Virus record (IMG/VR): IMGVR_UViG_3300047546_001169
Location: 1-26,956 of that record
Strand: one strand, 5' to 3'
Origin: a virus
Length of the DNA stretch: 26,956 nt
A program made the translations under genes and the position numbers. Positions within the stretch are counted from its first letter, which is position 1. Each line of letters opens with the position of its first letter. Below, piece by piece: positions 607-11,170 of this stretch. The notes beneath the pieces were generated by a model. The model was given only the letters and a program-made list of their open reading frames with translations. It made no database searches and was not told the DNA's origin.

Positions 607-1436
607 TTCTTTTCTCCTTGCTCAAACAAAGCGTTAGCAACTTCAAAGATGCGCTTTTTATTTTGAAGCGCGTTGATGTATTCTTGCGGAAAGCAGTCGA
701 TACCATTCACTGAACCAATCCACATGCCTGCAACGCAAGCATTGGTGTCGGTGTCCCATCCATAGGATACGGCATGACGCAACGTAGCGCCACCATCACC
801 CCTGCCGTAATGCACAGCATGTCGTGCAGCGTTGAAGGTGTACATGATGGAGCCTTTCTTGACGCGAGTAGCCGTCGGATTGAAATACAACGAATGGAAC
901 TGGGGCTGCACCGGCCCCATCAACTCAGCAACGAACGCGGCGGTGTAGTTGATAATATCGGCGTTGCCGTGTGTCATCAAGCTTGCAGCAACAGCGTCGG
1001 CAAGCGCTTGTGTGCTGTTGTTGTGGTTGGCAGCAAGGCAGGCAGCGATGCGCATGATGCTGCCGTTGCCGCTGTCGTGTGTGTCGCCTGTCGAAGCAAA
1101 GGGTCGGTCATGCTCCATGCGATCAATGGCAGCAGCGGTGGTGCGTCCAATGTCAAAGACATATCCACGGGTGCCATAGTTGCCCGTCTTGCGCCAGTCC
1201 TTGAAGCGACGTGCTGCATCCTGCGGATCGAACTTACCACGGGCAACGTAGCTCTCGCCCAATGCCAACGTCAATGCGCCATCGTCGGTGTACTCACCGA
1301 GACTAACATCGTGTGCGCCACCAGTTGTCAGCTTAACATCATCCGGGTTCATTGGTTCACCAAACTCATAAGGTGCGCCAAGCATATCGCCTAGAAACGC
1401 ACCGACAAACATGCCGACAACTTGATCACGGGTCAT
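603..1436 (-). CDS. ADP-ribosylglycohydrolase (DraG/ARH family)
   Basis: A 277-aa protein covering the whole family fold. Visible motifs are GAFLGDMLGAPYEF (residues 12-25), YTDDGA (49-54), NGSIMRI (124-130), THGNAD (155-160) and WDTDTNACVAG (227-237). In DraG-type enzymes the TDD and DTDT motifs hold two metal ions and remove ADP-ribose from arginine or other acceptors, or open O-acetyl-ADP-ribose. All these metal ligands (T50, D51, D52, D228, D230, T231) are present; the usual T after TDD is replaced by G. An active enzyme is therefore likely. The phage copy may reverse host or toxin ADP-ribosylation during infection; this is inference. Start at 1436 has an AAAAGGA Shine-Dalgarno and ATGA overlap with the upstream gene. 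Confidence 0.93.
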   Translation of the reverse strand: MTRDQVVGMFVGAFLGDMLGAPYEFGEPMNPDDVKLTTGGAHDVSLGEYTDDGALTLALGESYVARGKFDPQDAARRFKDWRKTGNYGTRGYVFDIGRTTAAAIDRMEHDRPFASTGDTHDSGNGSIMRIAACLAANHNNSTQALADAVAASLMTHGNADIINYTAAFVAELMGPVQPQFHSLYFNPTATRVKKGSIMYTFNAARHAVHYGRGDGGATLRHAVSYGWDTDTNACVAGMWIGSVNGIDCFPQEYINALQNKKRIFEVANALFEQGEKK

Positions 1437-1660
1437 TGTGTATCCTTTTCTTTCGGAGGTTTTCGAAGCGGCGTTACTTGCGCCGCAGCAGGAATGTGGA
1501 AAATATTTCCGGTCATGTCGAGGCAGTAACTGAACATGCCGTCGAGATGATCGAAGAAGAAATAATTATCGCACCACTTCACGTAGTTCCGTTTCGGAAC
1601 GCTGTATAGTGGTGTAGGTTGCAGGTGTATCCAATCACGCAGGTCTACTTCGCTGATCAT
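1433..1660 (-). CDS. 75-aa hypothetical protein
   Basis: A 75-aa protein rich in aromatic residues (WCDNYFFFDHLDGMFSYC in the middle) with a basic proline-containing tail (PLRKPPKEKDTQ). I do not recognise a family. It is accepted as real because its start has an AAAGGAAC Shine-Dalgarno and overlaps the upstream stop by 4 nt, and because its stop overlaps the start of the ADP-ribosylglycohydrolase gene in the same way. Confidence 0.75.
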   Translation of the reverse strand: MISEVDLRDWIHLQPTPLYSVPKRNYVKWCDNYFFFDHLDGMFSYCLDMTGNIFHIPAAAQVTPLRKPPKEKDTQ

Positions 1661-1812
1661 GATGTTCCTTTCGACAACACCTGCTTCGGTGTCTTGCGTT
1701 GAACACGATTGCTCGGATGACAGAGATATTTTTCACCAAGCTTTAGAATGGCTTGCTTGGCACGTTCGAAGTTTCGTTGCTGAATCTCTTGCAATTGCTG
1801 TTCGATGGTCAT
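1657..1812 (-). CDS. 51-aa basic helical protein
   Basis: A 51-aa protein beginning MTIEQQLQEIQQRNFERA. The first 30 residues form a charged amphipathic helix and the C-terminal part is basic (RVQRKTPKQVLSKGTS). The frame is open for another 52 codons upstream, but that part is arginine-rich translation of the 88-aa gene's antiphase and lacks a ribosome site. The ATG at 1812 has a GAGG Shine-Dalgarno and overlaps the stop of the 25-aa micro-gene by 4 nt. It may bind nucleic acid; the family is not recognised. Confidence 0.7.
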   Translation of the reverse strand: MTIEQQLQEIQQRNFERAKQAILKLGEKYLCHPSNRVQRKTPKQVLSKGTS

Positions 1813-1886
1813 ATTAATAGCCTCAAGAAAAATGGTAGCGTCAGAATGACGACGATGAGTATCAGTCCGTCGTCGTCGTCTATCAC
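1809..1886 (-). CDS. 25-aa micro-membrane peptide (GTG start)
   Basis: A 25-codon frame reading (initiator M)IDDDDGLILIVVILTLPFFLRLLI. Four aspartates are followed by a 17- to 18-residue hydrophobic segment with one arginine near the C-terminus. Its GTG start overlaps the stop of the 88-aa gene by 4 nt (GTGA) and its TGA stop overlaps the start of the 51-aa gene by 4 nt (ATGA), so it fills the 71-nt gap between them exactly. No strong Shine-Dalgarno is seen; reinitiation from the upstream gene would be needed. The pattern fits a real coupled gene, but the short length leaves doubt. Confidence 0.55.
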   Translation of the reverse strand: MIDDDDGLILIVVILTLPFFLRLLI

Positions 1887-2149
1887 ACGCTATACCGTTC
1901 GTAGTTGCGGATGCGGCTCTGCTTGTCTGTGTGCTTCTCGACGAAGCGCAACGCTGTGCCGTGGTCACGCAGGGCTTGCATCAACAGGGACAGGTCGCAG
2001 TCCTCTTCGAGGAACGCATAGTCTCCACGTTGATACGAATACGATGATACCTTGTCGGCAATGCCGAGGTTGGTGAGCACACTCTTACGTACCTTGGCCC
2101 ATGCATGACCGGGGTCACTGTAGACAGTGACGGTGAATTGTTTGCGCAT
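1883..2149 (-). CDS. 88-aa conserved phage protein
   Basis: An 88-aa protein starting MRKQFTVTVYSDPGHAWAKV and containing SSYSYQRGDYAFLEEDCDLS and a basic C-terminus (EKHTDKQSRIRNYERYSV). It resembles small proteins with the HAWAKV and YAFLEEDCD segments that occur in phages of several proteobacteria; no function is established. The AAGGAG Shine-Dalgarno lies inside the last codons of the upstream 71-aa gene, giving tight coupling. Confidence 0.8.
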   Translation of the reverse strand: MRKQFTVTVYSDPGHAWAKVRKSVLTNLGIADKVSSYSYQRGDYAFLEEDCDLSLLMQALRDHGTALRFVEKHTDKQSRIRNYERYSV

Positions 2150-2154
2150 TTTGT

Positions 2155-2370
2155 TTACTCCTTGATGTAGTCGTCCATGTTCTCTGCTTCGACAGCAACG
2201 TAGAACGTGTTGAGGGTTTCGAAGCTTCCGTCTTCGCCGATGAGCGTCACCATCTGTGACGTGATGATGCGCTCATACCCCAATCGTGGGTGGTCGAGGG
2301 CAAGGACAGTGACCTGCTTATCGTTGAGACGATGTAAGCTATCGCGGACATAATGTACAGTGGGTTTCAT
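2155..2370 (-). CDS. 71-aa hypothetical protein
   Basis: A 71-aa protein of mixed strand-like and acidic character (MKPTVHYVRDSLHRLNDKQV ... VEAENMDDYIKE). I recognise no domain. The start at 2370 has a GGAGG Shine-Dalgarno at 7-nt spacing and a 4-nt ATGA overlap with the stop of the upstream 54-aa gene. Five nt separate its stop from the next gene, whose ribosome site it contains. Confidence 0.75.
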   Translation of the reverse strand: MKPTVHYVRDSLHRLNDKQVTVLALDHPRLGYERIITSQMVTLIGEDGSFETLNTFYVAVEAENMDDYIKE

Positions 2371-2531
2371 AGCATAGCCTCCGGCATGTTGGCGAGCGCT
2401 TGCTTACTTTGTTCGCGCTGTCGCTGTTTCAAAAAAGAACGCTGCCGTTGTCGTTGTGACTCAGGCAGCGCCTTACCTTTGTAGGTATTAAAGGGCCACA
2501 CCAACGGTAGCCCTTCGTTGTTGCGTTGCAT
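2367..2531 (-). CDS. 54-aa glutamine/arginine-rich protein
   Basis: A 54-aa protein, MQRNNEGLPLVWPFNTYKGK followed by a Q/R-rich helix (SQRQRQRSFLKQRQREQSKQ) and LANMPEAML. The start shares one base with the stop of the DUF932 gene (TAATG) and no clear Shine-Dalgarno is present, so it depends on coupling. The stop overlaps the next start by 4 nt. The basic helix suggests nucleic-acid or protein binding. The family is not recognised. Confidence 0.7.
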   Translation of the reverse strand: MQRNNEGLPLVWPFNTYKGKALPESQRQRQRSFLKQRQREQSKQALANMPEAML

Positions 2532-3385
2532 TATGCAGGCAGCAGGTCGAACAACTCGCGGTTGATACGAACGTGCTCAGCCACTGCGGTGACAGGGCGA
2601 GCCTTACGCATGCCGACGTTGTTGTCGGTGATAGACTTGATCATCACGTTACCACGCAGCACATTCTCCTGAATGCGATTCCACACAGTGAAGGCATCGC
2701 TCAGGTTGTCCTCGCTACGCTGCACGCCGAGTGCATCACGGATGGTCTTGTCAACAGCGTAGCTGCCCTTGATGGGGCGACCATCGACGTCGACAATGCT
2801 GTCGTCCCATGCACCCCAACGCTTCATCACGGCTTGCTTGGCAAGCTCATACTGCTGCATGCCATCAAGGTTGATGTTACGGGCAACCTCGAACTGCTGC
2901 AACACCGAAGGCAAAGCCTCAATGACAGAGCGCAGGGATTGCTCGAATCCTGCAATCGACTTCGTCGTGTGGTAGATACGCTGCTGCATACCTTCCCCGG
3001 CAACGATGCCGTTGGAGCAGATGAAGCGGTATGCTCCGGCAAACAAACGCAGGGCAGAGCTACCATCGTGGCTGTTGTAGACGATGATCTCACCACGGGT
3101 TTGACCGTCGCCTTGGTCGCCTCCCTTGCTGAAAGCAACCATGTGGGTCTTGTGCTCAGCCTTGGTCGGGCTGTTCTTCGTGGGACGCTTCTGTGCAGCT
3201 TGCACAGGGAAGTAGTCGTAGTCTGCCATGATGGGCAACAGATCCGCAGTGCGGAAGGCTGCATAGCGATCCGTCAGACGCTCCGCCTTAGTGTCCGAGA
3301 ACATAGCGGGAGCACGCTGCTGCATGTCTTCGACAGTGAGCACGCCATTGTCGTTGCGGCGGGAGAAGATGAGTGATTGACGCAT
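2531..3385 (-). CDS. DUF932 family protein
   Basis: A 284-aa protein with the signature of the DUF932 family (phage/plasmid-like protein): a central AGAYRFICSNGIVAGEG block at about residues 116-132, preceded by EIIVYNSHDGSSALRL and followed by helical stretches (FEQSLRSVIEALPSVLQQFEVA). The length is normal for the shorter phage members. The family is common on plasmids and phages and its biochemical role is not established. The gene opens a transcription unit: a sigma70 promoter (3435-3464) and a structured leader with an AAAGGAAA Shine-Dalgarno precede it. Separate promoter control suggests high or early expression. Confidence 0.85.
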   Translation of the reverse strand: MRQSLIFSRRNDNGVLTVEDMQQRAPAMFSDTKAERLTDRYAAFRTADLLPIMADYDYFPVQAAQKRPTKNSPTKAEHKTHMVAFSKGGDQGDGQTRGEIIVYNSHDGSSALRLFAGAYRFICSNGIVAGEGMQQRIYHTTKSIAGFEQSLRSVIEALPSVLQQFEVARNINLDGMQQYELAKQAVMKRWGAWDDSIVDVDGRPIKGSYAVDKTIRDALGVQRSEDNLSDAFTVWNRIQENVLRGNVMIKSITDNNVGMRKARPVTAVAEHVRINRELFDLLPA

Positions 3386-3430
3386 GGTGTTTCCTTTCGG
3401 GGTTGTGACGGCGACAGTGCCGTCGATGGG
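3386..3430 (-). promoter_or_regulatory. structured 5' leader of the DUF932 unit
   Basis: The transcript from the promoter at 3435-3464 would begin near 3428 and at once form a stem-loop at 3407-3424 (GACGGC, 6-nt loop, GCCGTC). The Shine-Dalgarno follows in CCCCGAAAGGAAAC, with a minimal CC-GAAA-GG hairpin. The same 13 nt, ACCCCGAAAGGAA, precede the first late gene at 8913. The arrangement matches three other early leaders in the window. Confidence 0.65.
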
Positions 3431-3434
3431 ATCA

Positions 3435-3464
3435 ATTGTACAGCGAAATAAATAGTCGAGTCAA
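3435..3464 (-). promoter_or_regulatory. sigma70 promoter, early
   Basis: The -35 box TTGACT (3459-3464) and -10 box TACAAT (3435-3440) are separated by 18 nt. The promoter lies between the stop of the 72-aa gene and the DUF932 gene. It shares its TACAATTGA core and downstream CCCATCGAC with the other early leaders. Confidence 0.8.
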
Positions 3465-3472
3465 GTATGGGG

Positions 3473-3691
3473 TCATTCGTCCTTGGGTCGGATGTCAACC
3501 CATGACAGCGTGTCACTGCACCACATCATAGGTGACAGGGGCAAGCGCCACTGTATGACAACCTCAAGCGCTTCCGTCATCGTAGACTTCGTTGCACACA
3601 AGGGCATGCCTGCCCTAGCGTCGATGACAGCATAGCCCTGCGACTCGCTACCGGAAATATAAAATTGATGTTCAAGCATAGCTTGCCTCAT
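3473..3691 (-). CDS. 72-aa hypothetical protein
   Basis: A 72-aa protein (MRQAMLEHQFYISGSESQGY ... CSDTLSWVDIRPKDE). No domain is recognised. The ATG at 3691 overlaps the stop of the DUF2591 gene by 4 nt, which decides this start over the internal M5. The coding sequence ends 9 bp before the -35 box of the next promoter, so it is the last gene of the unit that begins at 4721. Confidence 0.7.
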   Translation of the reverse strand: MRQAMLEHQFYISGSESQGYAVIDARAGMPLCATKSTMTEALEVVIQWRLPLSPMMWCSDTLSWVDIRPKDE

Positions 3692-4047
3692 AGAAGATCT
3701 TCGGGAATGTCAACGTCATCACCGAACACCGACGATACATAAGCACGCATCGCTGCGATGAGCGGTGTTGCACCATACTCCTCAGCACCACTTCGTGTCG
3801 TAGCTATCCAAGGTCTGCCTTCGTTGGGGTTGAGCGGGTTGTAGTCGAGGGTGATGAGTTCACGTTCGATGATGGCTCCGGCTTGCGACCAATTCGTTGA
3901 TGGTTGCCACACTAGGCGATACGCATTGCTGAGAATAACTTTCCACGAAACAACTTCGTTGTCGTCGAGTTCTGCCTTGTGTCCTTCGGCGGTTGCCACT
4001 GCCCAGTCAAGGGCAACACCGTTGAGAATGCTTGTCTTTACTTTCAT
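3688..4047 (-). CDS. DUF2591 family phage protein
   Basis: A 119-aa protein beginning MKVKTSILNGVALDWAVA and containing TNWSQAGAIIERE, ATPLIAAMRAYVSSVFGDDV and a final PEDLL. This is the full pattern of the DUF2591 family, found mainly in phages and prophages of enterobacteria and Burkholderiales; members are about 115-125 aa and have no proven function. The ATG at 4047 is chosen because it follows the TTTCCTGAAAGGAAAC ribosome-binding hairpin and matches the family's usual N-terminus; the frame is open further upstream but without a ribosome site. Confidence 0.88.
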   Translation of the reverse strand: MKVKTSILNGVALDWAVATAEGHKAELDDNEVVSWKVILSNAYRLVWQPSTNWSQAGAIIERELITLDYNPLNPNEGRPWIATTRSGAEEYGATPLIAAMRAYVSSVFGDDVDIPEDLL

Positions 4048-4050
4048 AAG

Positions 4051-4065
4051 TTTCCTTTCAGGAAA
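4051..4065 (-). promoter_or_regulatory. CCUGAAAGG hairpin over the Shine-Dalgarno (DUF2591)
   Basis: TTTCCT, loop GAA, AGGAAA: a perfect 6-bp stem whose 3' arm is the Shine-Dalgarno. It overlaps the stop codon of the upstream peptidase-like gene (4058-4060), so ribosomes finishing that gene would open the hairpin and expose the site. Confidence 0.6.
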
Positions 4066-4528
4066 AGCTGTATACACCAATGACACGGGTACGGGGTCGG
4101 GTTGGGAACGTATCGATGATACGTCCGTTGATGAGTGCAAACACATGTCCACGCACCGACACAATGTGTCGTCCCGTGGGATAGCGTGATGCAATGTTGG
4201 CAACTGTGCAGCCTTTGCTGTCGACATCGTCAGCACCGCATTGGTACAGCGACATCAGCCTGTCGCGCTTCTTGCCCGTCTCACCCAGTGTGGTGAAGGT
4301 AGCGCCAAATATCTTCGCCACTTCGTGGGTTGTCGTCACCTTCGTACCACGGAATTGCTTGCGTCCCTTGCGGAAGAACAGGTCACGCAGGTTGGGGTAG
4401 GTATCGACGCCAACGTTAGCGAATGCTCGAATGACGCAGTCATTTTTATCTTCGAGTCCGAAGTCCGCCGCCATGTATCCGGGTTCGGCAGGGTGATGGG
4501 GCAGATGGGTGATGAAGATTGTTCGCAT
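4058..4528 (-). CDS. putative papain-like cysteine peptidase
   Basis: A 156-aa protein. After a short N-terminus it reads EDKNDCVIRAFANVG (Cys31), then RKGRKQFRGT, and near the end YPTGRHIVSVRGHVFALINGRIIDT (His128, Asn134, Asp139). The order of a helix-start cysteine followed about 100 residues later by GHVxAxxxGxxxD is that of papain-fold peptidases, and phage proteins of this layout are widespread but not characterised. The catalytic assignment is inference. The ATG at 4528 is preferred to the far upstream one because the extra 113 residues are the wrong-frame translation of the 59-aa gene. An AAAGG Shine-Dalgarno precedes it. Confidence 0.7.
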   Translation of the reverse strand: MRTIFITHLPHHPAEPGYMAADFGLEDKNDCVIRAFANVGVDTYPNLRDLFFRKGRKQFRGTKVTTTHEVAKIFGATFTTLGETGKKRDRLMSLYQCGADDVDSKGCTVANIASRYPTGRHIVSVRGHVFALINGRIIDTFPTRPRTRVIGVYSFS

Positions 4529-4541
4529 GTTGCTGAGCCTT

Positions 4542-4721
4542 TCAGTAAAAGCTGACGATGACAGCCGAAGCTTCGGCAGGGTATGCAGCAGCCCATTCGT
4601 CAGCGCTGTTGCGCTTGATGGTGTAGTGCATGAACGTTGCGTTGCCCCATACGACGACGACAACGTGTCGTGCAAAGGTACGGATGAAGCTGCGGCGGAT
4701 GGCGCTGATGATGTCACGCAT
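4542..4721 (-). CDS. 59-aa hypothetical protein
   Basis: A 59-aa protein, MRDIISAIRRSFIRTFARHV followed by a valine run (VVVVVW), MHYTIKRNSADEWAAAYPAE and ASAVIVSFY. It is the first gene after the promoter at 4771-4800 and has an AAAGGAC Shine-Dalgarno in a CCUGAAAGG hairpin. The ARHVVV segment also occurs near the end of the 134-aa protein encoded just upstream (TTARHVVVASRNG), so the two may share a short element. The function is unknown. Confidence 0.75.
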   Translation of the reverse strand: MRDIISAIRRSFIRTFARHVVVVVWGNATFMHYTIKRNSADEWAAAYPAEASAVIVSFY

Positions 4722-4765
4722 TGCTGTGTCCTTTCAGGAATTCGACAGCGGGATGCCGTCGATGG
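4722..4765 (-). promoter_or_regulatory. structured 5' leader of the 59-aa gene unit
   Basis: A 5' stem-loop at 4743-4761 (CGACGGC, loop ATCCC, GCTGTCG; one G-U pair) is followed by a second hairpin at 4729-4739 (TCCT, GAA, AGGA) that contains the Shine-Dalgarno. The transcript from the adjacent promoter should start at about 4764, a few bases before the first stem. Confidence 0.7.
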
Positions 4766-4770
4766 GTTGA

Positions 4771-4800
4771 AGTATATGGGATAAATAATCTCCGAGTCAA
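4771..4800 (-). promoter_or_regulatory. sigma70 promoter, early
   Basis: The -35 box TTGACT (4795-4800) and -10 box TATACT (4771-4776) have an 18-nt spacer. The -35 box overlaps the stop codon of the upstream 134-aa gene. The CGCTTGACTC start and an AT-rich spacer are shared with the promoter at 7601-7629. Confidence 0.8.
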
Positions 4801-5201
4801 GCGGAGGGGTTTTGTCGGCATTCCTGACCGAAGATTGCGCCTCTGCCGTTACGTGATGCAACGACAACGTGTCGCGCCGTTGTCACGGGAAGCTCGCTCA
4901 CGGCAGTGACGAAGCTGTCGAACTTGTACGGATTGTATTTGATGGGGGTGAACAGCGCTTCGATGCGGTTGATGAAGCTGTCGCTCACGTTGGTGTTGAT
5001 CATCTCACCGACGACACCGGCATGTACGTTCTTGCGTTGCTCACGGATGACACGCTGACGTCCGGCTTCGGACACCTTGAACGTGGCGTTTGCAAGCAAT
5101 ACAGAGTCAGCATGGGCAATGACACGCCCTTTGCGCTCACCTTCGAGTGCCTTCACGCTCAGGCATTTACGATTCAAGTTGAAGTAGACCATCACACGCA
5201 T
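4797..5201 (-). CDS. 134-aa conserved phage protein
   Basis: The protein begins MRVMVYFNLNRKCLSVKALE and contains GRVIAHADSVLL and FKVSEAGRQRVIREQRKNVHAG, a pattern seen in small proteins of many phages of proteobacteria whose role is not known; the usual members end soon after this, and here about 60 further residues follow (INRIEALFTPIKYNP ... RHVVVASRNGRGAIFG). The ATG at 5201 is chosen over one at 5252 because it has an AAGGAGAG Shine-Dalgarno and gives the family N-terminus. It overlaps the 3' end of the endonuclease gene by 35 nt. Confidence 0.8.
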   Translation of the reverse strand: MRVMVYFNLNRKCLSVKALEGERKGRVIAHADSVLLANATFKVSEAGRQRVIREQRKNVHAGVVGEMINTNVSDSFINRIEALFTPIKYNPYKFDSFVTAVSELPVTTARHVVVASRNGRGAIFGQECRQNPSA

Positions 5202-5622
5202 TTGTTCTCTCCTTGAGATAGTCGATTGCACATTGCAATCGGTTGATGTCATCTTTCATATGTCCAATTGCAACATTGCAACAATGACAGATGATGCCGC
5301 GAACCTTACCCGTTGCATGACAATGATCTACCACCGCCTGATTAGGCGGTCGAGAATCATTTCTTTTGATTGGTTCCACATGTAACTCTACGCTACATAC
5401 TGCACATTTTCCATCTTGCGTGGCAACCATTGCCTCCCATTGTTGTCGAGTCAACCCGTAACGATGCTTCATTTGTTTCCATCTCTGGATACTTGGATCA
5501 GCCCGTTGTCTTTCAATGAGCGCTTTGTTGTGGCAAGATTTACAGGTAAATCTATGTCCCGTTGGCGTTTTGTAGAATTCTGTCAGTTGCTTTTCAACTG
5601 AACATGTTTTGCATTTGAACAT
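5167..5622 (-). CDS. endonuclease VII-like HNH nuclease
   Basis: A 151-aa protein with an N-terminal zinc ribbon (C4, C7, C27, C30), a linker helix (RYGLTRQQWEAMVATQDGKC) and a recombination endonuclease VII core: C73/C76, VVDHCHATGKVRG (D99, H100, H102), C112/C115 and N116. In T4 endonuclease VII this His-Me fold cuts DNA junctions; small stand-alone members in phages are often homing endonucleases. The Shine-Dalgarno (GAGG) lies in the 3' arm of a perfect hairpin (5628-5643). A second, divergent member is encoded at 21681-22127. Cellular role, homing or recombination, cannot be decided from sequence. Confidence 0.88.
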   Translation of the reverse strand: MFKCKTCSVEKQLTEFYKTPTGHRFTCKSCHNKALIERQRADPSIQRWKQMKHRYGLTRQQWEAMVATQDGKCAVCSVELHVEPIKRNDSRPPNQAVVDHCHATGKVRGIICHCCNVAIGHMKDDINRLQCAIDYLKERTNACDGLLQLES

Positions 5623-5627
5623 TGTTT

Positions 5628-5643
5628 CCTCACTAATGTGAGG
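5628..5643 (-). promoter_or_regulatory. hairpin sequestering the endonuclease ribosome site
   Basis: CCTCAC, loop ATTA, GTGAGG on the minus strand: a perfect 6-bp stem. The GAGG of its 3' arm is the Shine-Dalgarno of the endonuclease gene, 5 nt from the ATG at 5622. Folding of a long read-through transcript would block translation. Confidence 0.6.
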
Positions 5644-5687
5644 ATTGTTGTATCACAATGTGCAGGTTAACGCCAGTAATACCTACA

Positions 5688-5759
5688 TCAGAATGCGTCG
5701 CGTTCAATCAATACGAACACGATGATGAGTGCTACGATGATGGCAAGGAAATAGTACAT
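5688..5759 (-). CDS. 23-aa micro-membrane peptide
   Basis: A 23-aa frame reading MYYFLAIIVALIIVFVLIER then DAF. Residues 3-18 are hydrophobic and the C-terminus is charged, so a single membrane span is expected. The ATG follows the stop of the 51-aa HTH-like gene by 1 nt and has an AAAGGA Shine-Dalgarno at 8-nt spacing. That site lies in a perfect hairpin (5766-5781). The good ribosome site and strongly biased composition support a real gene. Confidence 0.65.
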   Translation of the reverse strand: MYYFLAIIVALIIVFVLIERDAF

Positions 5760-5760
5760 G

Positions 5761-5916
5761 TCAGAATCCTTTCAAAAGGATTTTCATGAGGAACGGAACA
5801 GCAAGTCCCGTCAGATTAGATAACTCTTTTAGAGTTAAGTTGGGATTGTTGTCGTATATCCTACGGATATCATCGTAGGTTAATCCGTGGAGCGAACGCT
5901 TCATTGTGTATGCCAT
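5761..5916 (-). CDS. 51-aa HTH-like protein
   Basis: A 51-aa protein: MAYTMKRSLHGLTYDDIRRI followed by YDNNPNLTLKELSNLTGLAV and PFLMKILLKGF. The spacing of helix (DDIRRIYDNN), helix (TLKELSNLTG) and helix (VPFLMKILL) matches a small helix-turn-helix unit of a type seen in early regions of several phages. It is the first gene after the long boxA leader and has an AAAGGT site in a CCUGAAAGG hairpin. A role as an early regulator is plausible but unproven. Confidence 0.7.
   Translation of the reverse strand: MAYTMKRSLHGLTYDDIRRIYDNNPNLTLKELSNLTGLAVPFLMKILLKGF
5766..5781 (-). promoter_or_regulatory. hairpin over ribosome site of the 23-aa gene
   Basis: ATCCTTT-TG-AAAGGAT on the minus strand, a 7-bp palindrome (6 bp with a 4-nt loop in RNA) within the last codons of the HTH-like gene. 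The AAAGGA arm is the Shine-Dalgarno of the 23-aa peptide. Translation of the upstream gene would unfold it. Confidence 0.5.
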
Positions 5917-5921
5917 GTCAC

Positions 5922-5936
5922 AAACCTTTCAGGTTT
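5922..5936 (-). promoter_or_regulatory. CCUGAAAGG hairpin of the HTH-like gene
   Basis: AAACCT, loop GAA, AGGTTT: a perfect 6-bp stem with the Shine-Dalgarno in its 3' arm, 5 nt before the ATG at 5916. The outer pairs (AAA/TTT) are the complement of those in the hairpins at 4051-4065 and 7283-7297 (TTT/AAA), which is compensatory change. Confidence 0.6.
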
Positions 5937-5938
5937 TG

Positions 5939-5962
5939 TTGAACGCTCACCATTGAACGCTC
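5939..5962 (-). repeat. 10-bp direct repeat in early leader
   Basis: GAGCGTTCAA occurs twice with a 14-bp period (5939-5948 and 5953-5962). It sits just upstream of the ribosome site of the HTH-like gene and could be a protein-binding site on DNA or RNA. Confidence 0.5.
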
Positions 5963-6112
5963 AAGAAAACCCCCTATCGCAAGAGCACCCACTCTCACTT
6001 GGGGACAGATGGTATAGATGCCGCACTCTATCCAATGCATGATGCCTTAACGTATGCATCATTCACGCCAGCCCATAGTGCATCTGTCACATGCACCGAC
6101 ACTGGTAACGGG

Positions 6113-6140
6113 TTGTTAAAGAGCGGGAAGCTTTCGCTTC
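6113..6140 (-). promoter_or_regulatory. rrn-type antitermination element (boxB-like hairpin plus boxA)
   Basis: On the minus strand a stem-loop GAAGC-GAAA-GCTTC (6127-6140) is followed after 2 nt by GCTCTTTAACAA (6113-6124). The latter equals 12 nt of the E. coli rRNA-operon boxA core (TGCTCTTTAACAA), the NusB-NusE binding site for antitermination. The order hairpin then boxA is that of rrn leaders, the reverse of lambda nut sites. It begins about 6 nt after the expected transcription start of a near-consensus promoter, where such elements act. Confidence 0.72.
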
Positions 6141-6152
6141 GTGTTGCTTTCT

Positions 6153-6182
6153 ATTATAAGGGCGTCGCATTTCCCTTGTCAA
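6153..6182 (-). promoter_or_regulatory. strong sigma70 promoter of the early operon
   Basis: Both hexamers match consensus, TTGACA (6177-6182) and TATAAT (6153-6158), with an 18-nt spacer. It is the best promoter in the window. Upstream it carries the GAAAGCCC-N-TACAG block found also at the promoter at 6333-6362. Confidence 0.88.
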
Positions 6183-6332
6183 CTGTATGGGCTTTCACCC
6201 CGTCGTCAACGGTTCGCATAGCGTCGTCTGTAACATACAGGCTAAGCTACGCTTCGATACTACGCTTGTGTCGTAACCCGGCATCACCCGGCTAGCTTCT
6301 CACCGACTCGGCGTCGTCTCGCATTGGCTTCT
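6183..6332 (-). other. short untranslated segment between tandem early promoters
   Basis: No supported gene. On the minus strand it contains a two-part stem-loop at 6216-6252 (GCGTAGC/GCTATGC outer stem with one G-U pair, a 5x5 internal loop, and an inner CTGTA-TGT-TACAG hairpin), a direct repeat AGCGTAG, and a 10-codon frame MRDDAESVRS without a ribosome site. The segment could be a leader or a small RNA. Confidence 0.4.
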
Positions 6333-6362
6333 ATTATTACCGCCAACGAAAAACCCTGTCAA
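6333..6362 (-). promoter_or_regulatory. sigma70 promoter, tandem upstream copy
   Basis: The -35 box TTGACA (6357-6362) and -10 box AATAAT (6333-6338) have an 18-nt spacer. With its upstream block (to 6376) it matches 19 of 20 positions of the corresponding segment at 6177-6196, so the two promoters look duplicated. Confidence 0.75.
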
Positions 6363-6383
6363 CTGTAGGGGCTTTCGTTGACG

Positions 6384-6397
6384 TCCCCCGAAGGGGA
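6384..6397 (-). other. UUCG-tetraloop hairpin after the GP88 gene
   Basis: TCCCC-TTCG-GGGGA on the minus strand, 10 nt after the stop codon of the GP88 gene. A very stable stem but no U-tract follows, so it may protect the mRNA 3' end or cause pausing; it is not a classical terminator. The same stem reads CCCC-CGAA-GGGG on the plus strand. Confidence 0.5.
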
Positions 6398-6407
6398 TCG
6401 TCGCATG

Positions 6408-7277
6408 TTAGTGCACAGCGATTGCAATCACCTTGCCCTTGAACACGTCGCTACCGCAAGCATGCCCCACGTTGGTGCATGTGCCGCACTTGCCGGGGCA
6501 GGGAAACACTTTGCTATCAAAGATAGCACGAATGGCATCGTTCACCGGCTTCGTGCCATAATCGGCAGCTTTGATCTTGCGACCAATGCTGACAGCGACG
6601 AAGTCGCCACGGGTAAACGCTTGCTGACGGATGAAACCTACGGTGGAGTCGTCCGCATTGTGACCCGAGGAAATATTCAACTTATAGTTGACCGGCACCA
6701 CGCCGCCAGCTTCGACGAAGCTCTTCAGCAGAGCGAAGCTCTTGCTGTAGCCGTAGGCTTTCACCTTCGGCAGGACCGACAGCAGGCCCATCCAAAATTC
6801 AATGTCAGAGACATTGGAAAAATCGCCGTCCACATAGAGACGGAAATCAAAACCCTTCGGGTTTGCGTCATTAACGGCATTCAATGCATCAATAATCGCA
6901 AAGCGATTGAAGCGCATCAAGTATGCATTCTGAGCCTGACGGAAGAACGCCGACGGATAACGCCATGCCCTGAAGCTGTAGCAGAATGCTAAGCATTCTC
7001 CAGCACCGGGACAAGTGACGCCGGGCAGAGTAGAAAACGCATAGAACGGCAGCTTGCTGTTGCCTTCGGCAAACACGCTGAACGGCACAGCGTTATCGAA
7101 GATAACGGACGAAAACTTCGTCATGGCAGCTTGCCAACCCTTCGAAGCGAACAAAGGCAGAGCCTTTAGGGCAACGAATGCGTTGACGATATCAGCTTCG
7201 CTGCCGGTTTGGACGACGACGGCAAAGCGCTGAAGTTCTTCGAACTTCGGGGCGTTGGTGAATGAACGTGTTTGCAT
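6408..7277 (-). CDS. Gene product 88 (GP88) family protein
   Basis: A 289-aa protein with the hallmark block LPGVTCPGAGECLAFCYSF (about residues 84-102; three cysteines) and RAWRYPSAFFRQAQN just after it. The middle (FDFRLYVDGDFSNVSDIEFW, VKAYGYSKSF) and a C-terminal cysteine cluster (PCPGKCGTCTNVGHACG, about residues 259-275) are also typical. The GP88 family is named after a mycobacteriophage gene product and is found in many phages and plasmids. The cysteine sets suggest a metal or Fe-S site; no activity is proven. The gene is alone in its unit: own promoter, structured leader, and a UUCG hairpin after the stop. Confidence 0.87.
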   Translation of the reverse strand: MQTRSFTNAPKFEELQRFAVVVQTGSEADIVNAFVALKALPLFASKGWQAAMTKFSSVIFDNAVPFSVFAEGNSKLPFYAFSTLPGVTCPGAGECLAFCYSFRAWRYPSAFFRQAQNAYLMRFNRFAIIDALNAVNDANPKGFDFRLYVDGDFSNVSDIEFWMGLLSVLPKVKAYGYSKSFALLKSFVEAGGVVPVNYKLNISSGHNADDSTVGFIRQQAFTRGDFVAVSIGRKIKAADYGTKPVNDAIRAIFDSKVFPCPGKCGTCTNVGHACGSDVFKGKVIAIAVH

Positions 7278-7322
7278 GGTGTTTCCTTTCAGGAAAGCGA
7301 CGGAATCGCCGTCGTCGATGGG
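7278..7322 (-). promoter_or_regulatory. structured 5' leader of the GP88 gene
   Basis: A 5' stem-loop at 7299-7315 (CGACGG, loop CGATT, CCGTCG) is followed by the ribosome-site hairpin at 7283-7297 (TTTCCT, GAA, AGGAAA) and the ATG at 7277. It has the same layout as the leaders at 4722-4765 and 7548-7595. Confidence 0.7.
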
Positions 7323-7326
7323 GTCA

Positions 7327-7356
7327 ATTGTAGGGGCCGATGAAAGCCCCTGTCAA
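7327..7356 (-). promoter_or_regulatory. sigma70 promoter with inverted repeat in the spacer
   Basis: The -35 box TTGACA (7351-7356) and -10 box TACAAT (7327-7332) have an 18-nt spacer. The spacer itself starts GGGGC and ends GCCCC, an inverted repeat that could be an operator between the two boxes. TACARTTGA motifs lie at both ends. Confidence 0.8.
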
Positions 7357-7364
7357 CTGTGGGG

Positions 7365-7547
7365 TTATTCGCCAACTGTCCAGATTTTAACAACGTAGTT
7401 GTTAGGGTTGATGCACTCTACACGGGCTACGTTGATGCCATCATCGTAAACGATGACGTTGTTTTTCCATGCGGTAACGGCAGTGAATCCTTCGGATTCG
7501 AGCCATTCGGCGGGATCAGCGAAAAAATGCTTCATCGTGACGTTCAT
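7365..7547 (-). CDS. 60-aa hypothetical protein
   Basis: A 60-aa acidic protein, MNVTMKHFFADPAEWLESEG then FTAVTAWKNNVIVYDDG and ECINPNNYVVKIWTVGE. No family is recognised. The ATG at 7547 is chosen because it follows a CCUGAAAGG ribosome-binding hairpin; an in-frame ATG at 7613 lies inside the promoter and cannot be transcribed from it. It is the first gene of the leftward early region. Confidence 0.75.
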   Translation of the reverse strand: MNVTMKHFFADPAEWLESEGFTAVTAWKNNVIVYDDGINVARVECINPNNYVVKIWTVGE

Positions 7548-7595
7548 GCTATGTATCCTTTCAGGATTGCGACGCCGGGAATCGGCATCGATGGG
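7548..7595 (-). promoter_or_regulatory. structured 5' leader of the first early gene
   Basis: The 5' stem-loop at 7570-7590 (CGATGCCG, loop ATTCC, CGGCGTCG; 8 bp with one G-U) is followed by the ribosome-site hairpin at 7555-7567 (ATCCT, GAA, AGGAT). The transcript is expected to start close to 7594. Confidence 0.7.
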
Positions 7596-7600
7596 AACGG

Positions 7601-7629
7601 ACTGTAGCGACAAACAATACCTGAGTCAA
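7601..7629 (-). promoter_or_regulatory. sigma70 promoter, first early gene
   Basis: The -35 box TTGACT (7624-7629) and -10 box TACAGT (7601-7606) have a 17-nt spacer. It is the rightmost leftward promoter and marks the right end of the early region. Confidence 0.78.
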
Positions 7630-7753
7630 GCGAAGGGTTTTTCGACGTCGGCTTTGGCAGCGAAGCTGCTGCGCGTGTGCGCGTGCTACGTCACGTGTAG
7701 CGCGATGCGGTGCGTGATGCGCGGATGACGTGCGACGTCGTGCGTTAGCGGGT

Positions 7754-7809
7754 GGGGTAGTTCGATGCGAAGCTTTGCTTCGGTCGACGTCGAGCGGGGT
7801 AGTTCGATG
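7754..7809 (+). repeat. 14-bp direct repeat GGGGTAGTTCGATG
   Basis: Two exact copies at 7754-7767 and 7796-7809, 42 bp apart (four helical turns). Each copy runs straight into an inverted repeat (7768-7782 and 7803-7821), so the same protein could contact both. Confidence 0.65.
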
Positions 7810-7939
7810 TTGTACATCGAAAGAGGGGGTATGCTCTACCGCTAAGTTAGTGGTCACTAACATAGGGATTTTATCGCTCTGACGACAAAAGCACTTATTC
7901 CTACGGAATAGACCTAAGCTGTTGATTTGCAAAGCAAAT
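7768..7939. repeat. series of inverted repeats with 3-nt spacers
   Basis: CGAAGC-TTT-GCTTCG (7768-7782), TTCGATGT-TGT-ACATCGAA (7803-7821), TATTCC-TAC-GGAATA (7896-7910) and ATTTGC-AAA-GCAAAT (7925-7939) are all perfect. CACCAT-GCT-ATGGTG (8291-8305) and a 10-bp pair with spacer GCT (8722-8744) continue the series to the right. Confidence 0.7.
7846..7861. promoter_or_regulatory. 16-bp perfect palindrome, copy 1 (operator candidate)
   Basis: GTTAGTGGTCACTAAC, a perfect dyad. With flanks it forms GCTAAGTTAGTGGTCACTAA plus CATAG, which recurs in inverted orientation at 8099-8114. This is typical of a dimeric repressor site. Confidence 0.65.
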
Positions 7940-8046
7940 GACGTAGCGCGAGATCGTGCGCTAGAGCGCATTATGCGCGATCACACACACGCATCATGTG
8001 CGCGGATGACGTGAGCATGACGTGGGCGGGCGTGGGCCACCCGGGG

Positions 8047-8076
8047 GTGCTAGCGCTATTGTATATAGCCTAGCAC
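8047..8076. repeat. 12-bp inverted repeat with single bulge
   Basis: GTGCTAG-c-GCTAT, loop TGTAT, ATAGC-CTAGCAC. It is a strong cruciform or RNA hairpin without a following T-run on either strand, so it is not a standard terminator. Confidence 0.6.
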
Positions 8077-8098
8077 ACAGATCAGGATTTTTAACTTT

Positions 8099-8114
8099 GT
8101 TAGTGGTCACTAAC
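8099..8114. promoter_or_regulatory. 16-bp perfect palindrome, copy 2 (operator candidate)
   Basis: A second exact copy of GTTAGTGGTCACTAAC, 253 bp from the first. The flanking GCTAA is on the right side here, so the extended 24-bp element is inverted with respect to copy 1. Pairing of the two sites by looping would be possible. Confidence 0.65.
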
Positions 8115-8189
8115 TTAGCATGCCAATAAAAACAACGACCTATCCCGATCTTGTGCATCCTGCCGCACACACCATCACCTACATCACCC

Positions 8190-8229
8190 AACACCACACG
8201 ACACCATCCGGCACCAAACGACACCATCC
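8190..8229. repeat. 20-bp tandem repeat (iteron-like)
   Basis: Two adjacent 20-bp units, 8190-8209 and 8210-8229, share ACGACACCATCC and CACCA; 17 of the 20 positions agree. Further ACACCA and CATCACC fragments lie to the left. Tandem sites of this kind are found at replication origins and at cooperative regulator sites. Confidence 0.55.
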
Positions 8230-8306
8230 TGCACTACAATGACAGCAAAAACATAGCTTTGTCGCATTGACGACGCGGGGTCAGCAACAACACCATGCTA
8301 TGGTGA

Positions 8307-8321
8307 TGAGAATCATTCGCA
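8307..8321. promoter_or_regulatory. Fur-box-like dyad
   Basis: TGAGAATCATTCGCA matches the 7-1-7 Fur consensus TGATAAT-N-ATTATCA at 11 of 14 positions and is itself a near palindrome. It ends about 47 bp before the -35 box of the rightward promoter at 8369. The match may be chance; Fur control of a phage locus is unusual. Confidence 0.3.
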
Positions 8322-8368
8322 TTTACATAGAATAAATGGGGACAGAGACACAACAGAGTTGCTTTTGC

Positions 8369-8397
8369 TTGACAAAGACACGCAAGCTATGTAAAAC
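8369..8397 (+). promoter_or_regulatory. rightward sigma70 promoter of non-coding RNA
   Basis: The -35 box TTGACA (8369-8374) matches consensus; the -10 box TAAAAC (8392-8397) matches at four positions; the spacer is 17 nt. Transcription would begin near 8404, at the start of a strongly structured, gene-free stretch. Confidence 0.55.
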
Positions 8398-8579
8398 TGG
8401 GGCTGTCGATTGGACGGGTAACGGTGGCAATCGGCAACGACTGTAAAGTCGTCATAGCGCTACCACGGGAGAGACATTGAAACAGCGCAAATGGATGGCG
8501 AAGATAGCGTCCTAATGTCGAAAGGCTGTCGTAAGAGCTAACAAGCTCTAAAGGCTCCCCACAGGAGTCTTAGTGTATC

Positions 8580-8811
8580 TATAGAGTGTTAATGAACAAT
8601 AATAACATTTTGATGCATGCTTCTAGTTGGTTTCATCTTTATACCTTGTTAACAATTTAAACACGCCAGTATCAGCACTCTAATAAATAAACATTGTTTT
8701 TAATCTAACAAACATTGTTACTTCTAACATTGCTAATGTTAGAAACATAAAATAACAAAGATGTTGTTCTAAGTCGCTAATGTAACCGATAACAACCTAT
8801 ATAGTCTACAT
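8580..8811. other. AT-rich repeat stretch, possible replication origin
   Basis: About 230 bp clearly richer in A and T than the surroundings, with three ACATTGYT copies (8691-8698, 8712-8719, 8727-8734) and a 10-bp inverted repeat TTCTAACATT-GCT-AATGTTAGAA (8722-8744). It lies between divergent early and late units, next to an upstream promoter that could supply a primer transcript. No gene is seen. Origin function is inferred from composition and repeats only. Confidence 0.4.
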
Positions 8812-8839
8812 AAGGGAATTCTAACGAGTTCCCTTTTTT
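8812..8839 (+). terminator. intrinsic terminator, rightward
   Basis: A 10-bp stem AAGGGAATTC / GAGTTCCCTT (one G-U pair) with loop TAAC is followed by a T-run (8834-8839). It works only on the plus strand. It isolates the late promoter at 8862-8890 from upstream rightward transcription and gives the non-coding RNA a defined 3' end. Confidence 0.85.
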
Positions 8840-8861
8840 GTTAACTAAAAGCAGGGTGTTG

Positions 8862-8890
8862 TTGACACACAACGTATTTTGGTTTACATT
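8862..8890 (+). promoter_or_regulatory. sigma70-like promoter of the late operon
   Basis: The -35 box TTGACA (8862-8867) and -10 box TACATT (8885-8890) have a 17-nt spacer. The transcript would start near 8897, giving a 16-nt leader with the CCCCGAAAGGAA ribosome site. All plus-strand genes to the right follow in one direction. Confidence 0.75.
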
Positions 8891-8912
8891 GTTACCCCGA
8901 AAGGAATGTGTT

Positions 8913-9167
8913 GTGGCCCGCTTCAAAACACGAAAAGAACTCGGAGCACTTGTTAATAGTCCGCCGCACAGCTATTATGCTGTTGCCATGAAACAGGTGT
9001 TCAAAGACAAAGAAGAGGTGAAGACGATTGGATATCACTCTGATGTCTATTACGTCAGAGCAGCGTTAGAAAGGCATACAGGCTTGTTAATTCCGCTTCC
9101 GGCTGTTGACAAAGCAATGCGTGACGAAGGCTGGTATGAAGGCGTTGTCAATAGACGTCGCTATTAA
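8913..9167 (+). CDS. 84-aa hypothetical protein, first late gene
   Basis: An 84-aa basic protein beginning (GTG) MARFKTRKELGALVNSPPHS, with AAMKQVF-like helix AVAMKQVFKDKEEV and a C-terminal MRDEGWYEGVVNRRRY. No family is recognised. The GTG at 8913 is preferred to the in-frame ATG at 8838 because the latter lies upstream of the late promoter and overlaps the terminator, while the GTG has an AAAGGA Shine-Dalgarno at suitable spacing. Confidence 0.7.
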   Translation: MARFKTRKELGALVNSPPHSYYAVAMKQVFKDKEEVKTIGYHSDVYYVRAALERHTGLLIPLPAVDKAMRDEGWYEGVVNRRRY

Positions 9168-9190
9168 TTTCTGTTACAACGCGGAGTAAT

Positions 9191-9466
9191 ATGACCATCA
9201 AACGAGGCAACGAAACTTTCAGTGGCTACAACAAGCCTAAGCGTACTCCTTCTCATCCGAAGAAGAGCCATGCTGTTTTGGCTAAAGAGGGCGACAAAGT
9301 GAAGCTCATTCGTTTTGGTCAACAAGGCGTTAGTGGTTCTCCAAAGAAAGAAAACGAAAGCGAAGCCTATCGCAAACGTCGTGAAAGCTTCAAAGCTCGA
9401 CACGCCAGTAATATAGCTAAAGGCAAAATGTCTGCTGCGTATTGGGCTGACAAGGAGAAGTGGTAA
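9191..9466 (+). CDS. 91-aa conserved phage protein
   Basis: A 91-aa basic protein. The region from KLIRFGQQGVSGSPKK through ESEAYRKRRESFKARH to GKMSAAYWADKEKW is a pattern I know from late regions of podoviruses in aquatic and soil bacteria, where its function is not established. The first 30 residues are rich in K, P and S. A GGAG ribosome site precedes the ATG, and the stop shares one base with the next start (TAATG). Confidence 0.8.
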   Translation: MTIKRGNETFSGYNKPKRTPSHPKKSHAVLAKEGDKVKLIRFGQQGVSGSPKKENESEAYRKRRESFKARHASNIAKGKMSAAYWADKEKW

Positions 9467-9732
9467 TGCCGTTTCAGTCGAATGGAAAACGACAATATAG
9501 TCGTGAGCTTCAATGGGAAAAAGACAGCAAGCCGCAGCGTGTTAAACAGCGTGCTCAACGCAATGCTGCCAGAGCTAAGCTGATGGACGAAGGCGCAGTT
9601 AAGCCGGGTCATGATGTTGACCATAAGCGTCCTCTGTCAAAGGGTGGTAGCAATACACGTAGCAATTTGCGTTCTGTTCCGGCGTCAAAGAACAGAAGCG
9701 TTAAGCGTAAAGCTGATGGAAGTTTGCGATAA
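9466..9732 (+). CDS. small HNH endonuclease
   Basis: An 88-aa protein with a basic helical N-terminus (residues 1-48) and an HNH core: GHDVDHKRPLSKGG (D52, H53, G60, G61), SNTRSNLRSV (N67) and ASKNRS (N76). These are the invariant positions of the HNH motif, though the C-terminal metal histidine is replaced by asparagine, as in many HNN members. In phages an HNH protein near the terminase genes often takes part in DNA packaging; here the terminase lies 4 kb downstream. The ATG at 9466 is chosen over a GTG at 9460 because of the AAGGAG site and the one-base overlap. Confidence 0.82.
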   Translation: MPFQSNGKRQYSRELQWEKDSKPQRVKQRAQRNAARAKLMDEGAVKPGHDVDHKRPLSKGGSNTRSNLRSVPASKNRSVKRKADGSLR

Positions 9733-10106
9733 TGGGACGCACCAACGAAAAGCTGTGGGAAGCTGCCAAGGCGCAAGCGAAGGCAAAGATGGGTGGTAAA
9801 CATTCTGCCCGAGCTATGCAGCTTGCTGGTAAAATATATAAAGATAAAGGCGGCGGCTACACTGGCGAAAAGACAGAAGCGCAGAAGTCCATGACGAAAT
9901 GGACGAAGCAGGAATGGACAACGTCTAGCGGCAAGCCCTCTGAAGGCAAACGTCGTTATCTGCCGAAGGCTGCATGGGGTGCGTTGTCTGAGTCTGAGAA
10001 GAAGGCAACGAATGCCGCAAAAGCTGCGGGTAATAAAGCGGGTAAGCAATTTGTTGCCCAACCGAAGGCTGTCGCAGAAAAGACAGCGAAATATCGAAAG
10101 AAATAA
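9732..10106 (+). CDS. DUF5872-like protein
   Basis: A 124-aa lysine-rich protein. The blocks DKGGGYTGEKTEAQKSM, KWTKQEWTTSSGKPS, KRRYLPKAAWGALSESEK and KAGKQFVAQPKAVAEKTAKYR match the DUF5872 pattern found in phages and some bacteria. The function is unknown; strong positive charge suggests DNA or virion association. The start shares a base with the upstream stop (TAATG). Confidence 0.78.
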   Translation: MGRTNEKLWEAAKAQAKAKMGGKHSARAMQLAGKIYKDKGGGYTGEKTEAQKSMTKWTKQEWTTSSGKPSEGKRRYLPKAAWGALSESEKKATNAAKAAGNKAGKQFVAQPKAVAEKTAKYRKK

Positions 10107-10108
10107 AG

Positions 10109-10945
10109 ATGGCTCTTTCTAAACTATTTGGTCGTGGCGTCGGTGCTGCCACTCGTCGTGGTGCTCCTACAGCGGGTAAAAATCGCTTGATGGCTGATCT
10201 TAGCGACGACGTCGTTAGCGAAACCAAGAGCGACCTTGCTCAAATGCGCAAGGCGTTGTCTGCCCGTGCTGCTGAAGCTGAAGACGACAAGCCCGGTGCT
10301 GCCCTGCGTCGTATAAGCGTGCAAGAAGCCGGTGGTAGGGCTGCGTTGCGTACCGGTAGTCGTGCAGGTGCTGTTGGCGCTGCCGGTGCTGGCGGTGTAG
10401 CTTTGGGCACGGCTGCTAGCGAGCGTGCTAACGAAACCCGTCGTCGTATGATGGAGGACGAAGAAGACAAGACGCCTAAGCGCGTTGCTGTTGCCTCTCG
10501 GACGATGGATGATGACGAGATGGACACCATCAAGAAGCGTCTTGATGAAGAAAAGAGCAAGCGTGAAGACAAGAAGGAGATGTCCTTCAAAGAAGCCTTT
10601 GCTGCTGCGCGTAAGGACGACAAAGCCACCTTCACGTGGCAGGGCAAGCGTTATACGACGGAGCTTGCCAAAGAAGGCCCGAAGCCGTCTGTGCGTGAAG
10701 GCAAGAATGAGAACATTGACGACGAAACCCGTGGTCGCGCTGAGATGAACAAGGGTGGTGTCGTGAAGAAGAAATATAGCATGGGTGGTGCTGCCATTCC
10801 TGTTGTGTATGCAGGTGCTAAGAAGCCGGTGAAGAGCATGCCCAATCCTGCTCTGGCTGCAAAGCGTCTGAATAAGCCTAAGCCTCCTGTTGTTGCAAAG
10901 ACAAAGATGGCTAAGGGTGGTGCTGTTAAAGGAAAGAAGAAATGA
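10109..10945 (+). CDS. virion-associated protein with KGG-repeat tail
   Basis: A 278-aa protein of low complexity. The N-terminus is basic (MALSKLFGRGVGAATRRGAP); an Ala/Gly-rich hydrophobic stretch (AGAVGAAGAGGVALGTAAS, about residues 86-104) is followed by charged helices, then SFKEAFAAARKDDKATFTWQ, a segment found in proteins of marine and freshwater podoviruses. The last 70 residues repeat MNKGGVVKKK, YSMGGAA and MAKGGAVKGKKK. A minor structural or internal virion protein is likely from its place in the late operon. Its stop overlaps the next start by 4 nt. Confidence 0.7.
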   Translation: MALSKLFGRGVGAATRRGAPTAGKNRLMADLSDDVVSETKSDLAQMRKALSARAAEAEDDKPGAALRRISVQEAGGRAALRTGSRAGAVGAAGAGGVALGTAASERANETRRRMMEDEEDKTPKRVAVASRTMDDDEMDTIKKRLDEEKSKREDKKEMSFKEAFAAARKDDKATFTWQGKRYTTELAKEGPKPSVREGKNENIDDETRGRAEMNKGGVVKKKYSMGGAAIPVVYAGAKKPVKSMPNPALAAKRLNKPKPPVVAKTKMAKGGAVKGKKK

Positions 10946-11169: not shown

Positions 11170-11170
11170 A

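Follow-up and report, generated by a model that had tools for sequence, protein, structure and literature searches.

The DNA analysed here, referred to as the window, is a virus record of 26,956 bases from an HMO-2011-like phage. Its major capsid protein shares 71.1% identity with that of Puniceispirillum phage HMO-2011 and 75.6% with its counterpart in the uncultured podovirus MW202701. Early-type genes form a leftward block behind a leader on the minus strand (6146-5917), in which no ORF of at least 50 aa was found. Shorter GTG-start frames are present and reach 86 codons in the relative L125, so the leader is termed only apparently non-coding. The first ORF behind it encodes 51 aa (5761..5916, minus strand) and has no Pfam match. 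Further downstream lie an endonuclease VII-type gene (5167..5622, minus strand; PF02945, E 2.3e-21) and a gene of the phrog_586 / phage L5 gp82 family (4797..5252, minus strand). The leftward block also carries a NinX-family gene (3688-4236, minus strand; PF10765, E 2.9e-15) and an ADP-ribosylglycohydrolase gene (603-1436, minus strand; PF03747, E 1.8e-46). The neighbouring protein at 6408-7277 had no relative among phage records. A match to the Rfam Betaproteobacteria-1 RNA (67.1 bits against a gathering threshold of 49.4) sits upstream of the rightward structural block at 8403-8534 on the plus strand, and the same RNA was matched in four other loci (L121, L122, L124, and L211).

The leader follows a sigma-70 promoter, TTGACA-18-TATAAT (6153..6182, minus strand), which agrees with the consensus at 12 of 12 positions and ranks top of the 20 promoter-like sites in 1-12000. 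Its sequence would place the transcript start near 6146 on the minus strand. By eye, the spacers between the hexamers at 6182-6153 and at a second site, 7356-7327 (minus strand), contain inverted repeats (AGGG..CCCT and GGGGC..GCCCC), which are perhaps operators. Sequence and fold show a hairpin, P0 (GAAGC-GAAA-GCTTC; 6127..6140, minus strand), at the position that boxB takes in rrn leaders. It is directly followed by an rrn-type boxA, GCTCTTTAACAA (6113..6124, minus strand), 28 nt behind the -10 box and with 0 mismatches. The identical 12-mer stands in the leader of E. coli rrnB, after a hairpin and ahead of GTGTGGG. In three rrn leaders of Betaproteobacteria the corresponding sequence is GCTCTTTAAAAA (two leaders) or GATCTTTAAAAA (one), each followed by AAGTGTGGG; the boxA of the phage family likewise occurs in both the C and the A form.

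The first-pass annotation had described a boxA preceded by a GAAA-loop hairpin, as in rrn leaders, right after a consensus promoter and at the start of the early transcript. All of these features were found where it had put them, at the head of the leftward block. Hairpins of at least 5 pairs near or before boxA were present in 27 of 35 family members, against 11.3 expected in shuffles, and comprised 11 distinct stems. The consensus GYTCTTTAANA, derived for gammaproteobacteria (PMC5725501, excerpted text), occurs once in the window against a mean of 0.09 in shuffles. As 9 of 100 shuffles contained one, a chance match to this gammaproteobacterial 11-mer by itself in 27 kb is only moderately unlikely. 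The other two boxA-like sites of the window carry 2 mismatches each, and 2.41 sites with at most 2 mismatches are expected by chance. The significance of the boxA is therefore drawn from its place behind the best promoter and from its conservation, not from the 11-mer alone.

Conservation and spread of the leader

The protein encoded at 4797-5252 was used to retrieve 35 loci, and a model of the leader core (R1) was applied to them. The core was found in 12 of these loci (L121-L130, L143, and L145). A first core scan returned 54 stretches, 13 of which were dropped as chance matches by eye (L156, L160, L163, L168, L176, L179, L181, L184, L186, L188, L189, L190, and L202). The core pattern, which contains boxA, occurs in 51 viral contigs. 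Because R1 and this pattern both include boxA, we ran a boxA-blind scan with the pattern GTGTCGGTGA-N12-38-CTATNGACTAG, which covers the larger sister clade and not the window's own clade. It returned 31 contigs, every one of them already in the boxA-based lists. Within 25 nt upstream, TCTTTAANAA was invariant in 24/24 distinct sequences of the sister clade. Loss of boxA in relatives, which the first-pass annotation had proposed to look for, was thus seen in none of these sequences.

Among 49 further records, many of them fragments, R1 matched four; three divergent carriers (L321, L322, and L323) lie outside the training set. There was no R1 match in the whole genomes of HMO-2011, MW202701, CRP-1, phiM6, and Aeromonas phage 1233. 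HMO-2011, CRP-1, and MW202701 are more distant relatives without the element. Of 7 records searched with the core pattern, 6 contain one copy each, and the HMO-2011-type capsid family was detected in 10 of 16 carriers tested. The element seems to be a phage feature, belonging to one branch of the HMO-2011-like phages. When the exact pattern was run against a genome collection (84,980 species, contigs of at least 3 kb), three matches were obtained and all were judged by eye to be chance. BLAST of the element against phage records gave no match. At the gathering thresholds of Rfam 15, no family matched the element in the window or in the loci of 12 relatives, and a search at E up to 10 gave one chance-level match over it (E 4.5).

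A folded RNA behind boxA

In the relatives, boxA heads about 155 nt of conserved and apparently non-coding RNA (6124-5971 in the window). Behind boxA come a hairpin whose internal loop is conserved, then two pseudoknots, and last a long hairpin. The first-pass annotation had caught only the 5' tip of this covarying RNA. The first hairpin (6068..6105, minus strand) is formed by P1 (6105-6101/6072-6068) and P2 (6097-6091/6083-6077), separated by the internal loop GUC (6100-6098) / AUGG (6076-6073). In alignment A3 (26 sequences) this loop is nearly invariant, with the GUC of its 5' side invariant, while the P2 stem and loop vary widely in sequence and length. Standard pairs fill 90.9% of the 286 P1/P2 cells, and 52 cells are changed on both sides compared to 11.9 in shuffles, a count attained in none of 500 shuffles. 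When the partners were slid by 1-3 columns, pairing fell to 30-47%. Further pair types were no more numerous than in shuffles (285 of 500 had at least as many).

Pseudoknot 1 (6039..6067, minus strand) is built from P3 (6062-6056/6045-6039), whose loop ACG (6053-6051) pairs with CGU (6067-6065). Pseudoknot 2 (6014..6038, minus strand) is of the H type, with stems S1 (6038-6034/6027-6023) and S2 (6031-6028/6017-6014). The long hairpin P5 (5971..6004, minus strand) folds in the window, and the homologous hairpin covaries in relatives; TTTTCTT follows at 5969-5963. A further hairpin without a U tract, P6 (5939..5964, minus strand), was paired by eye in the window and folded in 33 members.

The region from P3 to P5 with both pseudoknots was compared in alignment A4, which contains 27 of 35 non-redundant sequences and covers six helices with 33 pairs, two of the helices crossing. 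Five sequences of the window-type clade (L121, L159, L164, L211, and L215) were omitted from it, as were L177, L194, and L212, with an unparsed 3' part or an insertion. In A4, 98.3% of 889 cells are paired, and both-side changes occur in 24 of the 33 pairs. The covariation score was 0.620 compared to 0.242 in shuffles, and 0/500 shuffles reach it. The crossing helices alone are 100% paired over 241 cells, with 40 cells changed on both sides (11.9 in shuffles) and a score of 0.474 (0.225 in shuffles), neither of which was reached in 500 shuffles. Their pairs with both-side changes number 5, a value reached by 106 of 500 shuffles, and their pair types are reached by 499 of 500. With a slide of +2, 76.2% of the cells of the crossing helices are still paired and the score is 0.212. 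The alignments were made by sequence, but the pairs were chosen by inspection of them, a choice that biases the comparison towards the structure and against its slid versions.

The window's own clade was compared in alignment A5, consisting of seven window-type sequences and L215. Here 99.3% of 152 cells pair, and both-side changes occur in 4 pairs, all of them in pseudoknot 2; further pair types are not raised (500/500 shuffles reach the count). Pseudoknot 1, which is 100% paired with both-side changes in the relatives, is invariant in this clade. By eye, L211 bridges the two clades, as it combines the window-type core with the pseudoknot 2 of the other clade. A model of the 3' part, R2, matched 9 of 97 records, all of them training sequences or near copies, and it revealed no new carrier and matched 0 of 7 window-type records. 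Because R2 missed these records, the statement that the window shares the whole architecture rests on A5 and on inspection. The folding energy of the window was ordinary (z -0.67, -0.51, and -1.48), a single-sequence measure that is uninformative here.

The 3' end of the element bears on a further claim of the first-pass annotation, that of an attenuator at 5965-6004. The hairpin at this place is present and conserved. The attenuator itself is not supported, as only 3 of 33 members have at least 5 T in the 110 nt behind the P5 anchor (33 of 35 members were counted; L177 and L212 lack this anchor). The first-pass annotation also saw no N-like gene; with regard to such a gene, a comparison of 30 loci, several of them short, showed no small gene common to all. 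The phrog_586 / L5 gp82 gene is found downstream in 23 of these loci, at a start 251 to 2238 nt behind boxA. As this distance varies, the element follows the transcript and not one gene. The scarcity of U tracts and the lack of a fixed gene favour a leader whose effect extends over the entire transcript.

Antitermination and other readings of the leader

The complex that forms on rrn leaders is known to counter Rho: NusB and NusE bind boxA, SuhB the linker between boxA and boxC, and NusA boxC (PMC6614801, in the part available), and boxA is described as both required and enough to recruit the factors (PMC10250234, excerpt). The phage leader resembles the rrn leaders of Proteobacteria (boxB-boxA-boxC, rrnTAC) in its strong promoter, its hairpin, its boxA, and the largely untranslated RNA behind, and a boxC-like GUGUCGG lies near the boxC position. 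This heptamer, present in 26 of 26 aligned sequences, is one base from the rrn boxC GUGUGGG, but the mismatch is fixed and the motif sits within a local covarying hairpin; L322 and L323 deviate more. In contrast to rrn leaders, two pseudoknots follow the phage boxA, and phage genes come behind it instead of rRNA, for which the window gave no match. We do not class the element as an rrn antitermination leader, because there is no rRNA downstream and the boxC is uncertain, though by its anatomy it should work like one.

Most of what is known about antitermination in phages comes from N, Q, and put. With lambda N/nut and the N-like Gp17 of mEp021 phages (PMC11893012, excerpt), the element shares its place in a phage early leader, a boxA, and structured RNA behind it. 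It differs from them in the rrn type of its boxA, in the hairpin that also precedes boxA, and in its far larger RNA. The hairpin behind the phage boxA has a variable P2 stem and loop and no conserved boxB loop, unlike that of lambda nut. The earlier contention that the site is rrn-like and not nut-like held for the hairpin in front of boxA but overlooked the structured hairpin behind it. The put RNA of HK022 is another structured RNA near the start of an early transcript and possibly, like the element, independent of a phage protein. It has two stem-loops within about 70 nt, and boxA goes unmentioned in the excerpted PMC9378689; set against this description, the only form in which put was compared, the element differs by its boxA, P1/P2, two pseudoknots, P5, and length of about 155 nt. 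The EAR element of Bacillus is a leader RNA with a pseudoknot that is linked to processive antitermination. It belongs to another host group and is not known to have a boxA.

Weighing these features, we lean somewhat towards reading the element as a leader at the 5' end of an early operon in an HMO-2011-like phage, one that would bring about rrn-type antitermination through host Nus factors, without an N protein. The course of events that we infer from the sequence, from transcription start through Nus binding to read-through and the part played by the folded RNA, would be as follows. Host RNA polymerase would start at the consensus promoter, and the hairpin and boxA would emerge first. The boxA would recruit host NusB and NusE (S10), which together with NusA, NusG, and perhaps SuhB and S4 would associate with the polymerase and protect it from termination by Rho. 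Because the next 200 nt are largely untranslated, the leader would be exposed to Rho in the same way as rRNA. The double-pseudoknot RNA would fix the shape of the transcript beside boxA, and most likely it would serve to stabilise the Nus complex, or to extend it, in the place of the linker and boxC, with no N-type phage protein. It may replace boxC, act directly on RNA polymerase in the manner of put (PMC9378689, as excerpted), or be a product of its own.

The last of these roles leads to a separate explanation, in which the transcript is cut to release the double-pseudoknot RNA as a stable non-coding product, and boxA only protects and folds the precursor as it would for rRNA. The strong structural constraint across about 155 nt agrees with this, as do the 45 of 116 viral-contig sites described below at which boxA stands ahead of tRNA/tmRNA genes, and the extra hairpin P6 could be a processing site. 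Yet 30 of 33 members have no terminator-like U tract, and genes with ribosome-binding sites follow close behind, so that we consider this explanation unlikely, though deserving of real weight. More doubtful still is a nut-like site at which a phage protein would bind P1/P2 or a pseudoknot beside boxA and act as lambda N does. The nearly invariant internal loop would suit such a protein, and the structured hairpin that starts about 8 nt behind boxA recalls the order of lambda nut, where boxB lies behind boxA (PMC6614801, in the part available). Against it stand the wide variation of the P2 stem and loop and the lack of a small gene common to all 30 loci, several of which are short.

The boxA could also play the opposite role and repress the downstream genes, as is described for the boxA before suhB, which represses expression rather than promoting it (PMC5725501, in its excerpted portion), or the leader, made in quantity from a consensus promoter, could titrate NusB/NusE away from the host rrn operons. 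We give both variants very little credence: conservation would be hard to explain for a repressive element that heads an early block, and a single copy per record in 6 of 7 records is unlike a sponge array. That boxA is a chance match, as the 11-base consensus in 9 of 100 window shuffles might suggest, is hardly credible given the invariant TCTTTAANAA of the boxA-blind set and the enrichment of the motif behind promoters in viral contigs.

The leader suggests that phages can borrow the host ribosomal transcription machinery through RNA signals. The interpretation given in the first-pass annotation was partly supported, being right in kind and incomplete. If read-through were confirmed, it would explain how untranslated phage transcripts are shielded from Rho, provide a natural RNA for probing what boxB and boxC do in the Nus complex, where their roles are unclear, and add a new structured RNA family with two pseudoknots.

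Promoters followed by boxA in viral contigs

Apart from this phage family, the motif is wider: rrn-type boxA is enriched behind promoters in viral contigs. With the strict pattern TTGACA-N16-18-TATAAT-N10-40-CTCTTTAANAA, 116 sites in 54 clusters were obtained, compared to 35 sites in 12 clusters for the reversed motif used as control, where one cluster accounts for 20 of the 35 sites. The strict pattern with its control replaced a looser scan (TATAAT-N15-45-GCTCTTTAACAA), which had returned at least 119 stretches and came without a chance estimate. At the position preceding the motif, which lies outside the pattern, at least 45 of 54 clusters have G; at the free position N, 45 of 54 have C or A. 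Both preferences agree with rrn boxA. In 9 of 54 clusters a hairpin with a GNRA loop closes directly ahead of the motif, where 0.27 would be expected, and none of the 12 controls has one. The contrast was weaker with a looser hairpin count: 24 of 54 clusters (15 expected), compared to 5 of 12 controls (3.6 expected).

A tRNA or tmRNA gene lies on the same strand within 600 nt at 45 of the 116 sites (19 of 54 clusters), compared to 0 of 35 control sites. The difference was smaller when promoters without boxA in the same loci were taken for comparison (20 of 55 against 26 of 143 clusters). Proximity to tRNA genes supports the antitermination reading, because these genes are untranslated too. Example loci with boxA before phage tRNA/tmRNA genes are L339, L076, L342, L370, and L400. 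Searches of open PMC papers on boxA and antitermination, a collection that mostly leaves subscription papers outside, brought up no report of boxA before phage tRNA genes, nor of rrn-type boxA in phages that lack N.

The motif is also found in cultured T5-like phages. In its 104 kb, Proteus phage Stubb (L442) contains CTCTTTAANAA five times and the reversed motif not once; all five sites lie in the pre-early region at 4.8-6.2 kb (4800-6193), on both strands. T5 (L443) has six copies against one of the reversed motif, with N = T in three of the six, and its boxA at 4977-4987 in the pre-early region stands after a hairpin. From these patterns we put forward, with somewhat less than even confidence, that rrn-type boxA may be a general phage device by which lytic phages escape Rho without N. 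It would serve early transcripts, including the pre-early operons of T5-like phages, and stable-RNA transcripts such as tRNA clusters and new non-coding RNAs; in the present family it would have grown into a double-pseudoknot RNA that needs nothing but host factors to build a polymerase resistant to termination. Confirmed read-through would mean that phages exploit the host rrn system directly via RNA in uncultured aquatic viruses, and probably in cultured T5-like phages as well.

Two further groups of sites were noted in the scan. In a cluster of 11 (L018, L050, L079, L086, L102, L338, and others), a common sequence behind the promoter, hairpin, and boxA looks like another non-coding RNA. For the stretch L018:11020-11400 BLAST gave no match in phage records, and BLAST of another boxA family gave tRNA-Glu matches only. 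In Limnohabitans phage DC31 (L325, about 25855-25985), a freshwater betaproteobacterial phage, a TATAAT, a GAAA-loop hairpin, and TTCTTTAAAAA occupy an intergenic gap.
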